Below are positions 14,666 through 35,508 of a stretch of DNA of 64,000 bases, in pieces (positions within the stretch are counted from its first letter, which is position 1; each line of letters starts with the position of its first letter). Origin of the DNA: Selenomonas ruminantium subsp. ruminantium ATCC 12561 (GTDB taxonomy: Bacteria > Bacillota > Negativicutes > Selenomonadales > Selenomonadaceae); contig NZ_AUJE01000022.1 of assembly GCF_000424065.1 (NCBI RefSeq), forward strand, positions 1-64,000, read 5' to 3'. The notes under the pieces are model-generated. The model saw nothing but the letters and a program-made list of their open reading frames with translations. It did not search any database and was not told the DNA's origin. The position numbers were made by a program, and so were the translations under genes.

Positions 14666-14753
14666 AGGCGGCGAGAGGGGGAGGCAATAACTTTCGTCTG
14701 CTTAGACAAGCTTGTCAAACGCTGCCGAAAGTCATTGCCTCCCCCTCCCGCCT
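14666..14753 (-). repeat. Hairpin element E1 of the GACAAGCYTGTC family
   Basis: Arms of about 28 bases (ending ggcaataactttcg / cgaaagtcattgcc) surround the core TTAGACAAGCTTGTCAAACGC. It is inverted relative to E2-E7: the G.U-type pairs are on the minus strand. The 14559-15153 gap contains E1-E4 and no gene. Confidence 0.85.
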
Positions 14754-14828
14754 CACTTCCAACTTAACACTTCAATGTAACCCATACAACGATGCGTGTC
14801 TTAGCAAGCAGCGGTCATGTATATACGC

Positions 14829-14921
14829 AGTAAGCCTGGTGGGACTGGTGATGTTTTCCGTAGCTTTTGACAAGCTTGTCTATGGCGAAGGAAAATATTA
14901 CCAGCCCCACCAGGCGCCTTA
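14829..14921 (+). repeat. Hairpin element E2
   Basis: 5' arm gcctggtgggactggtgatg and 3' arm tattaccagccccaccaggc pair with few mismatches around the core TTTTGACAAGCTTGTCTATGG. Two mismatches are G opposite T (GTGATG against ATATTAC), as in the other copies. Confidence 0.88.
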
Positions 14922-14952
14922 GCACTACGATGTTAATGTACAGCAAAATAAC

Positions 14953-15022
14953 GCAGTAAGCCCGTGGGGGCTGGTGATGTTTTCCGCAGCTTTTGGCAAG
15001 CCTGTCTATGACGAAACAACTG
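14953..15022 (+). repeat. Hairpin element E3, 3' arm missing
   Basis: It has the 5' arm (cccgtgggggctggtgatg) and core (TTTTGGCAAGCCTGTCTATG). After ACGAAACAACTGC the pairing arm is absent and element E4 begins at 15031. A truncated or recombined copy. Confidence 0.7.
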
Positions 15023-32620: not shown

Positions 32621-32705
32621 AAGCCCGTCCTGTGGGGGATGACTTTCTGTAGCGTTTGACAAGCTTGTCTAAGCGAAAGAAAGTTATTCCCCACAGGACG
32701 GGCGT
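32621..32705 (+). repeat. Hairpin element E5
   Basis: Arms gcccgtcctgtgggggatga and ttattccccacaggacgggc around GCGTTTGACAAGCTTGTCTA. It keeps the two G/T mismatches. It is nearly identical to E6, 650 bases away. Confidence 0.88.
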
Positions 32706-32740: not shown

Positions 32741-32768
32741 TTGACTTTTTACGGCAAACTGATATAAT
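32741..32768 (+). promoter_or_regulatory. Promoter of a candidate small RNA
   Basis: TTGACT, a 16-base spacer and TATAAT, a strong consensus match with no protein gene downstream. Confidence 0.75.
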
Positions 32769-32774
32769 CAAGAT

Positions 32775-32924
32775 ATGAAAAGGAGGACGAACCACAATGA
32801 TGGTCGCCCAACACCTTCCGATTTGGTAAATTGTATGGTTAATACCAAACAGTGACCTATCAGACGGCTATCTGATGGTCAACAGAATTCATGATTAAGC
32901 CGCCCCGGCCAGGGCGGCTTTTTT
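32775..32924 (+). ncRNA. Candidate structured small RNA with own promoter and terminator
   Basis: Starting about 7 bases after TATAAT and ending at a strong terminator (AAGCCGCCC..GGGCGGCTT, then six T; 32897-32924). Two further hairpins precede it: TTTGGTA..TACCAAA and TGACC-ATCAGA..TCTGAT-GGTCA. A ribosome site GGAGG precedes ATGATG, opening a 10-codon frame (MMVAQHLPIW) that may be a leader peptide or meaningless. I do not recognise the RNA family. Confidence 0.55.
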
Positions 32925-33216
32925 CATGCTTGCTACGAACTCTGGCCTAGCATTAACCGAAGAAACTATCCAAGAAGCTTAGCTTTTAGCCAAGTATATA
33001 AATCTTTGCCGAATTCCGACCAAAAGCCGGAAAGGATAGGCACCAGAACGAAGGTTCCAATAGCGTACAGCAAAAGCTGATATTCCACGGTATAATAAAG
33101 GGCAATTACACATCACCCTTTGGAGCTTTGATAAAGTGTCGGGAAGCTCGACTAGACTCACTTCGACCATCATTGTAAATCATCAATGTGAATACGGAAA
33201 ATCCGCGTTCGTCCTC
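32925..33216 (-). ncRNA. Candidate convergent transcript with a leader homologous to the plus-strand small RNA
   Basis: The promoter to its right would send a transcript leftward through a region sharing AGAGGACGAAC and ACAATGATGGTCG with the plus-strand RNA. A 64-codon frame starts at that ATGATG (33173) and ends at 32979, but lacks a good ribosome site and composition looks non-coding. The 3' end is unknown: the shared GC-rich hairpin at 32897 has no T-run in this direction. Confidence 0.4.
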
Positions 33217-33222
33217 TTGATG

Positions 33223-33251
33223 AGTATATCATAATCATGTATTATCGTCAA
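33223..33251 (-). promoter_or_regulatory. Convergent promoter
   Basis: TTGACG (33246-33251), 17-base spacer, TATACT (33223-33228) on the minus strand. Confidence 0.7.
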
Positions 33252-33275: not shown

Positions 33276-33363
33276 TAAGCCCGCCCTGTGGGGATGACTT
33301 TCTGTAGCGTTTGACAAGCTTTTCTAAGCGAAAGAAAGTTATTCCCCACAGGACGGGCGCCTT
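33276..33363 (+). repeat. Hairpin element E6
   Basis: Near-duplicate of E5 (arms gcccgccctgtggggatgac / ttattccccacaggacgggc), with the apical core changed to GACAAGCTTTTCTA, so the apical stem is weakened. Confidence 0.85.
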
Positions 33364-33385: not shown

Positions 33386-33475
33386 ACTAAGTGCGGTGAC
33401 TGGTGATGCCTTTCCGCAGCTTTTGACAAGCCTGTCTATGGCGAAGGAAAGGTATTACCAGTCACCGCGCGCCTT
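33386..33475 (+). repeat. Hairpin element E7
   Basis: Arms gcggtgactggtgatgcc and ggtattaccagtcaccgc around TTTTGACAAGCCTGTCTATGG, with the same two G/T mismatches. It ends 15 bases from the ANTAR regulator stop. The 32497-33489 gap holds only E5-E7 and the small-RNA pair. Confidence 0.88.
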
Positions 33476-33489
33476 TGCATATCTTTCTC

Positions 33490-34083
33490 TCAAGCCTTGC
33501 CCCCGGCCGCGCGAATGATACTCTGTGCCACATCTTTAAGCGGCACCCGCTTCTGCATGGCATACTGCTGCATCCGGCGATACGCTTCCTGTTCCCCCAG
33601 TTTATGCGCCGCCATGATTATGCCCTTGGCCCGGTCGACCATTTTGCGCGTTTCCAGCGAATCCTTGAGCTTTTCCAGTTCATCCTCCAACCCTTGCATT
33701 TCCTGCCAACGGGAGAGCGCGATTTCAATCGCAGGAAAAAGCTGGCTTTCCTGCACCGGCTTTACAAGATACCCCAGTACGCCGGAGTCCTTCGCCTTAT
33801 CCACAATATCGGGCTGACTGAACGCCGTCAGCAGGATTACGGGGGCAATTTTATCCACATAGATTTTTCCTGCCGCAGTAATACCGTCCATTTCCGGCAT
33901 CTTAATATCCATCAGCACCAAATCCGGGCGGTGCTGACGGGTCAGTTCCACGGCCCGCCGGCCGTTTACCGCTTCGCCCACGACTTCATGGCCTGCATCT
34001 TCGAGCATTTCCCGGATATCCAGACGGATAAGGGATTCGTTATCGGCAATGACAATCCGTAATGTTTTCTTGTTTTCCTGCAT
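33490..34083 (-). CDS. Response regulator with ANTAR RNA-binding domain (EutV/NasT-like)
   Basis: 197 residues. Receiver domain 1-120 with IADNESL, phospho-Asp in LVLMDIKMPEMDG, Thr in LLTAFSQ, Lys in YLVKPVQ. Then a coiled-coil linker (LEDELEKLKDSLETRKMVDRAKG) and ANTAR domain ~135-195 (RAKGIIMAAHKLGEQEAYRRMQQYAMQKRVPLKDVAQSII). ANTAR proteins bind tandem hairpins in nascent mRNA and prevent termination. It lies 3 bases after its kinase. Ethanolamine or nitrogen genes are typical targets, but none are nearby. Confidence 0.94.
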   Translation of the reverse strand: MQENKKTLRIVIADNESLIRLDIREMLEDAGHEVVGEAVNGRRAVELTRQHRPDLVLMDIKMPEMDGITAAGKIYVDKIAPVILLTAFSQPDIVDKAKDSGVLGYLVKPVQESQLFPAIEIALSRWQEMQGLEDELEKLKDSLETRKMVDRAKGIIMAAHKLGEQEAYRRMQQYAMQKRVPLKDVAQSIIRAAGGKA

Positions 34084-34086
34084 AAC

Positions 34087-35508
34087 TCATTCCTCCAAAC
34101 TCGCCACAACCTGCCCCTGCGCCTGCGGCTTGGGCAGGACAATATACGCATGCGTTCCCCGGCCGCTGCTGTCATTTTCCAACCGGAAACTGCCCTCCAA
34201 ATCGCCCTCAATCAAGGTGCGAATTATAGATAACCCCAGTGACCGGGATTTGTTCGGCTGAAAATCTGCGGGCAGACCGCAGCCATCATCGTAGAAATCC
34301 AGCCGTAATTCTTCATCGAGTTCCACCTTTAAGCCTACAAGCCCCGCCTGCCGTCCGGCAAAGGCATGCTCCACGGCGTTTATTATCAGCTCATTGAGCA
34401 CCAGTGCCAGAGAGCTGGCGTATTTTGGCGGCAGGCTTACCGCCTCCCCCTCATACTCCTGCTGCAAATCAAAATCCGCCGCGACCATGCTTGCCTTGAC
34501 CTGGGCAAAAATCTCCGCCATAATCTGCCCCAGCTCCATGCTCTCCCGCCCCTGCCGCGAGAGAAAATCATGCACCGCCGCAATGGACAGCACGCGGTTG
34601 ACGCTTTCGGAAAGCGCCGACTTGACTTCCTCCGAACCGCTGCGCCGCGCCTGCAGCCGCAGGAGGCTGGCCACCGTCTGCAGATTATTCTTGACCCGGT
34701 GGTGAATCTCCTGAATCACCGCCGACTTAATGCGGATTTCCTGCTCCTTGGCCCGGATTTCCGTCACATCCGAGAGCACGACAATCCGCCGCAGAAGCGT
34801 GCCCCCCGCCTGCAAATCAATCTGCCGGCGGATAAGCTGCAAGCCGCCCGCCGAAAGTTCCTTCTGCCAGGGCCGCTCCCGTTCAAAGGATTCCCGCGTG
34901 ACATGACGCGTCAGCTGCCGGTCGAACAAATGACAGCCCTTGAGACTGCCCACGCCCAAAACCCGATAAATGCGCTGCGCCGCCGCATTGGCAAACACAA
35001 TCCGGCTGAACTGGTCGGTAATCAACAGCCCGTCACTGGCCGAAAGCGGCATAAACGGCGCCAAATCCACATCACGCGCCGCAAAATTCAACACATCCTG
35101 CGTGGTCTTGATGAGATAGGAGAAGTCATCAATATTCAAGTGCTCCTTATCCACCTCAATGCTGATAACCGCAATCACATGCGCATTATCGACAATAGGG
35201 AACACATACATATCCACAAAATGCCCATAGTCCTGCTCCCGCTTGCCATGCACAAACTGCGCGGATTGAAATACCTCCGTGACCAGCGGTTCAGAAAGAG
35301 AATCCACAATCCCTTCCGCCATTTCCGCATCATCCTGCATATAAACCGTATGCGGCGTAGCCGTGGCGGTTATGCGCAGTTTGTCCACTGTTTCCGCCTG
35401 AATGTAGATGATGGCATGCCCATGGGCGAGGTCAGCCACAAAGGAGAGAATTTGTTTTAGGCGGTCTAAGATATTTAATTGTTTGGTTGTTAGTAAGGCA
35501 TTTTTCAT
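34087..35508 (-). CDS. Soluble sensor histidine kinase of the HisKA_2/HWE class (EutW-like)
   Basis: 473 residues, no membrane helix. N-terminal GAF-like sensor (~20-150), PAS domain (~155-265; LLITDQFSRIVFANAAAQRIYRV), then the phospho-acceptor helix with EIHHRVKNNLQTVASLLRLQ (~280) and an ATPase domain with LNELIINAVEHAF, YDDGCGLP and SRSLGLSIIRTL. This domain order with an adjacent ANTAR regulator matches EutW/EutV-type pairs, which sense a cytoplasmic ligand such as ethanolamine. The specific ligand cannot be told. The ATG lies after TTAGGAG. Confidence 0.93.
   Translation of the reverse strand: MKNALLTTKQLNILDRLKQILSFVADLAHGHAIIYIQAETVDKLRITATATPHTVYMQDDAEMAEGIVDSLSEPLVTEVFQSAQFVHGKREQDYGHFVDMYVFPIVDNAHVIAVISIEVDKEHLNIDDFSYLIKTTQDVLNFAARDVDLAPFMPLSASDGLLITDQFSRIVFANAAAQRIYRVLGVGSLKGCHLFDRQLTRHVTRESFERERPWQKELSAGGLQLIRRQIDLQAGGTLLRRIVVLSDVTEIRAKEQEIRIKSAVIQEIHHRVKNNLQTVASLLRLQARRSGSEEVKSALSESVNRVLSIAAVHDFLSRQGRESMELGQIMAEIFAQVKASMVAADFDLQQEYEGEAVSLPPKYASSLALVLNELIINAVEHAFAGRQAGLVGLKVELDEELRLDFYDDGCGLPADFQPNKSRSLGLSIIRTLIEGDLEGSFRLENDSSGRGTHAYIVLPKPQAQGQVVASLEE

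Follow-up and report, generated by a model that had tools for sequence, protein, structure and literature searches.

The locus at 32741-33251 of the window (the whole 64,000-nucleotide stretch of Selenomonas ruminantium subsp. ruminantium ATCC 12561 that was analysed) is probably a chromosomal type I toxin-antitoxin locus, representing a previously undescribed family in Selenomonadaceae. A minus-strand transcript beginning near 33216 would encode a membrane peptide of 40 residues, the presumed toxin, and the presumed antitoxin would be a structured RNA antisense to it, transcribed from the plus strand over about 32776-32924. At the level of sequence, comparison with relatives establishes RNA structure, coding selection, leader covariation and promoter conservation; the transcript ends, toxicity and repression we infer. 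An initial annotation of this DNA had proposed a small-RNA pair or a decayed toxin-antitoxin locus. Its outline has stood, but neither a pair of regulatory RNAs nor decay fits the window.

The convergent promoters lie where they were first placed, and both are kept by the relatives. The plus promoter (TTGACT-16-TATAAT) has 11 of 12 matches and the minus promoter (TTGACG-17-TATACT) 10 of 12; among the relatives the former is mostly TTGACT/G-16/17-TANAAT, at an almost constant distance from its leader. Block A, AGGACGAAC, and block B, ACAATGATGGTCG, each occur once at either end of the locus (Table 1). There are two exact copies of AGGACGAAC in the 64 kb, against 0.19 expected, and two of ACAATGATGGTCG, one per locus end. 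The leaders had been described as diverged copies. They are indeed homologous, but they are not merely diverged, since they persist as an inverted repeat whose differences for the most part maintain pairing inside the toxin mRNA. The hairpin repeats noted on both sides of the pair are also real. They are palindromic interspersed repeats with the core TTTGACAAGCNTGTCTANGNCGAA, found at 32621-32705, 33278-33360, 33390-33470 and 14696-15015, six in the window in two clusters where chance would give none. Similar repeats stand beside the copies in a S. ruminantium metagenome-assembled genome (MAG) and are absent beside the S. montiformis copy; they are REP-like and lie outside the locus proper.

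Table 1. Features of the locus, with window positions and the evidence for each.
Feature	Position	Strand	Basis
Antitoxin RNA promoter, TTGACT-16-TATAAT	32741..32768	+	conserved among relatives
Antitoxin RNA, ~145-150 nt, predicted ends	32776..32924	+	fold; covariance model match 32782-32928
Leader block A, plus RNA (AGGACGAAC)	32784..32792	+	exact-copy count, leader pairing
Leader hairpin HP1, with block B ACAATGATGGTCG at 32794-32806	32788..32806	+	fold, covariation
Hairpin HP2, GACC..CAGA-loop-TCTGATGGTC	32854..32880	+	covaries across family
Intrinsic terminator of plus RNA, strong, called at 32897-32920	32897..32924	+	terminator prediction
Predicted full-length toxin mRNA, ~440 nt	32778..33216	-	predicted extent
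Presumed toxin gene, 40 codons, GTG start, VEYQLLLYAIGTFVLVPILSGFWSEFGKDLYTWLKAKLLG	32966..33088	-	codon comparison, dN/dS
Hairpin AAAGGGTGAT-loop-ATTGCCCTTT, just upstream of toxin start	33097..33121	-	predicted fold, relatives compared
Leader block B, toxin mRNA (ACAATGATGGTCG)	33164..33176	-	exact-copy count, leader pairing
Leader block A, toxin mRNA (AGGACGAAC)	33207..33215	-	exact-copy count, leader pairing
Toxin mRNA promoter, TTGACG-17-TATACT	33223..33251	-	conserved among relatives

No protein gene had been recognised between the promoters, and the 40-codon frame had not been listed by the initial annotation. The minus strand in fact carries there an intact hydrophobic ORF whose conservation extends to two further Selenomonas genomes. 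Compared with these it has a dN/dS of 0.11, with changes chiefly at third codon positions, and on this codon evidence it is under purifying selection; coding selection and hydropathy together mark it as a gene for a small hydrophobic peptide. The minus transcript is thus not a second regulatory RNA, and the plus RNA probably serves it as an antisense antitoxin. In the intact toxins of the family, which were counted as intact by sequence judgement alone, the hydropathy of the best 19-residue segment ranges from 1.98 to 2.96. No match to the window toxin or to the other proteins at this position was found in Pfam, NCBIfam or PHROGs. Two frames previously considered, of 64 and 10 codons, were rejected as genes by codon comparison and by their varying length, the 64-codon frame having a codon-change pattern opposite to that of the toxin frame. 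Among the family loci the frame beginning in the leader runs from 4 to 112 codons and its peptide is not conserved, so that a mok-like role is unlikely and mok-like translational coupling was rejected.

The GTG start of the window toxin has no well-placed Shine-Dalgarno sequence; the sole good one is predicted to be buried in the hairpin just upstream, which in S. montiformis differs by one G-U to A-U change. In two other groups (L043 and L109, of the G191 and G031 groups), a strong predicted hairpin separates the Shine-Dalgarno sequence from the toxin start codon, as in GAAAGGG-[ACGTGATGCCTCTGGTGTCACGT]-GACGAATG, and would shorten a spacing of ~34 nt.

The plus transcript is much as first described, with a predicted length of ~145-150 nt, and is predicted to fold with a hairpin in the leader, followed by a middle stem, HP2 and a strong terminator (fold z = -3.2). 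Among 39 distinct homologues, in an alignment fitted to the covariance model, which somewhat favours the paired score, 97.1% of cells are paired and 10 of 24 pairs have changed on both sides. Neither the paired percentage nor the covariation score was reached in any of 500 shuffles, and shifting the partners abolishes the signal. Compensatory changes can be seen by eye in the terminator, in HP2 (GACC/GGTC to GGCC/GGCC) and in the leader hairpin. By this comparison the plus RNA is a genuine covarying structured RNA. Within the window only tRNAs scored above the Rfam gathering score, and the plus RNA was unmatched. With its own promoter and terminator it runs convergent to the toxin gene, and its overlap with the toxin mRNA depends on where that mRNA is inferred to end.

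The matching leaders bear on this end. In a leader helix aligned for 16 distinct loci, with hand-cut blocks and an additional base of the Anaerovibrio plus leader skipped, 93% of cells are paired and nine of 21 pairs are doubly changed; the G196 leaders, three of whose differences misfit G-U pairing, were excluded from this count on account of their divergent block B. Where the two leaders of a locus differ, 39 differences would still give a G-U pair within the minus transcript and 5 are of the opposite kind, a tally in which related loci are recounted, and so are not phylogenetically independent, and in which G066.C25 is mis-anchored in block B. Counted by eye as independent events, the figures are ~11 vs 3. 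The direction of this bias points to pairing within the minus transcript, and neither to mere identity nor to pairing within the plus RNA. Together with the leader covariation, it suggests a toxin mRNA that traverses the antitoxin gene and pairs its 5′ leader with its own 3′ end; an mRNA ending at the reversed plus leader would have complementary ends, the complement of plus block A sitting close to the 3′ end.

In minimum-energy folds of the predicted toxin mRNA, the 5′ leader pairs with the 3′ end at 27 of 27 loci through 15-32 pairs, mostly beginning with nucleotide 3 opposite the twelfth nucleotide from the end, and in the eight loci tested against shuffles the fold-back z ranged from -3.4 to -7.1. 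Cognate ends are predicted to bind more strongly than ends from other clades (clade means, kcal/mol) in Selenomonas (-44.6 vs -30.6 or weaker), in G196 (-48.6 vs -31.9 or weaker) and in G009/G020 (-44.2 vs -33.5 or weaker); this advantage was unclear in Anaerovibrio, G191 and the G031 group. Covariation and predicted folds at the 27 loci thus both favour a 5′-3′ fold-back of the toxin mRNA.

On the minus strand HP1 reads as a hairpin with T-rich sequence behind it, and we propose that the toxin mRNA ends in this region. The mean T content of the eight minus-strand bases that follow is 6.5, vs 3.8 after the central hairpin, and the plus-RNA terminator has no strong T run in this direction. The T run at the proposed end is weaker in the window than in the relatives, and is short there; a terminator scan did not call this end a terminator.

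These observations also bear on a par-like arrangement, in which the leaders would match for another purpose, such as protection of the 5′ end or binding of a common factor. As in par/Fst of pAD1, the promoters converge on a central terminator, and the outer arms of the central palindrome pair as well; by eye only, a PILSG..W stretch in the window toxin resembles the PXXXG motif and later tryptophan of Fst/Ldr toxins (PMC7472228). However, the par repeats DRa/DRb are direct and give RNAs with complementary 5′ parts, whereas the repeats of Selenomonas-type loci are inverted and give RNAs that are identical there. The poor T run after the central hairpin on the minus strand tells against termination at that point, and the 39-to-5 bias requires the minus transcript to extend as far as the plus leader. 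Fst and Ldr models in Pfam and NCBIfam gave no match up to E = 10, and the motif is confined to the Selenomonas-type toxin, being missing from the other toxins of the family. A par-like arrangement is therefore unlikely.

On the reading of read-through and fold-back, the toxin mRNA would pass through the antitoxin gene and stop at the first hairpin of the antitoxin, read in reverse. The full-length mRNA is predicted to be complementary to the entire antitoxin RNA and closed end to end, its 5′ leader pairing with the 3′ end to give an inert form; the antitoxin would bind the 3′ half and lead to degradation or blocked use. Since the 5′ end of the antitoxin copies the 5′ leader of the toxin mRNA, both would compete for one 3′ end. 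A self-mimicry switch of this kind, with exchangeable toxins set in a constant RNA frame, is a possibility that we put forward tentatively. We know of no described type I system that uses such a shared, mirrored leader. The idea that the Shine-Dalgarno sequence is hidden by the fold-back found no support in predicted accessibility, which in the Selenomonas loci did not change when the fold-back was removed. With the window's Shine-Dalgarno sequence predicted to lie in a local hairpin, and a hairpin behind that of two other groups, the fold-back may act instead on stability or on early ribosome binding.

The entire locus is present in the S. ruminantium MAG RUG13114 (94% identity) and in S. montiformis (88%). 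Beside the loci of these relatives none of the tested proteins that flank it in the window is present, and the locus therefore occupies different places; for the same reason a link to the adjoining ANTAR response regulator, which stands beside a HisKA_2 sensor kinase with a PdtaS-type GAF domain at 33490-35508, was rejected. The leader block was sought in other genomes, as the initial annotation had advised, and found at Selenomonadaceae loci. The search, a scan for the leader pattern followed by a covariance model (R1) of the plus RNA, gave ~40 strong members in six genus groups of this family, with up to 7 copies per genome, and a single marginal match outside it among 380 genomes of the class. 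Pattern-scan matches in Atopobiaceae, Lacticaseibacillus, Neomarinimicrobiota and Puniceibacterium were dismissed as chance, lying in coding-like DNA without locus features, and a search of viral contigs, plasmids and phages gave no match.

At 27 loci both leaders face each other, ~300-550 bases apart, and the toxin position is filled by five or more small membrane proteins that look unrelated: EYQLLLYAIGTFVLVPILSG... in Selenomonas, FPEKGSACDKALAEAIRALIPLITLVVVAGV... in Anaerovibrio, MPASMEAFLSSEVAIFTVCGLAALSVLVFLALIVLASFGVIDGKFLLELLRIIRK in another group and MKTNVFALALILIIAIAAHYGIIDEDFVLAMMQAVFCRK in G196, with further, different ones in G191 and in G201/G202. The toxins of two other clades have dN/dS values of 0.22 and 0.16, indicating purifying selection. 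As far as the sequences go, the toxin has been exchanged while the matching RNA ends were retained across Selenomonas and its relatives.

Antitoxin-like RNAs with no recognisable toxin partner occur as well (G003, G013, G016, G011 and some G066 and G077 copies), as would be expected if this were a toxin-less pair of regulatory RNAs, or a non-toxic small membrane protein regulated by an antisense RNA. Both seem improbable, given that the toxin frame is under selection and that exchanged membrane peptides in a constant RNA frame, multiple copies and a patchy, non-syntenic spread favour a toxin-antitoxin locus. Other Selenomonas carry short orphan RNAs (L117, L118, L119 and L121) with an altered leader hairpin, GAACTACATTGATAGTCGCC, and a different end, near which a matching leader was not found; these are possibly stand-alone regulators or antitoxins for distant loci.

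Decayed relatives are known, L021 with a truncated and L025 with a shortened toxin. In L048/L025 (S. ruminantium MAG, contig RUG13114_asm_20) the shortened toxin, MMVALASMLLGYVDPSILLQFVAAFK, is fused to the leader start codon, and both locus ends and their pairing are retained. That the window itself holds a decayed locus, its leaders being remnants of an inverted duplication, is most improbable, as the ORF there, its RNA helices without exception and the two promoters are intact and under selection.

Among known type I systems, the hok mRNA of plasmid R1 also pairs 5′ to 3′ (fbi). In the passages cited here, its full-length form is described as inert until activated by 3′-end processing (PMC4147584, PMC6733600). 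Selenomonas-type loci share with hok/sok a small membrane toxin and, as predicted here, an inert folded-back mRNA. However, the antisense target of Sok is the 5′ leader with the mok frame, whereas the Selenomonas antitoxin covers the 3′ half; a mok-like overlapping leader ORF is not conserved, and no sequence relation between the two was found. IsoA, as an antisense RNA, covers the 5′ part of its toxin gene, and the aapA Shine-Dalgarno sequence is caught in long-distance pairing, a capture not found by predicted accessibility at Selenomonas-type loci. Closure of the toxin mRNA by a long-distance 5′-3′ interaction, known from aapA/IsoA of Helicobacter pylori (PMC6733600), is predicted for them too. 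In txpA/ratA and bsrG/SR4 of Bacillus subtilis the genes converge and the antitoxin overlaps the 3′ end of the toxin mRNA, as predicted here, with RNase III-type degradation; in the section cited the overlaps are ~75 and ~120 nt and mirrored leaders are not described, whereas here the overlap would comprise the whole ~145 nt antitoxin and the leaders are mirrored (PMC4147584).

The locus would add an RNA-controlled toxin family to the Negativicutes, for which the literature library searched held no paper on type I systems. Its more than 25 natural copies could be used to study how toxin mRNA ends co-evolve with their antitoxin. The combination of constant RNA control with exchanged toxins, which every protein library tried failed to recognise, is relevant to why toxin-sequence searches overlook loci of this type.
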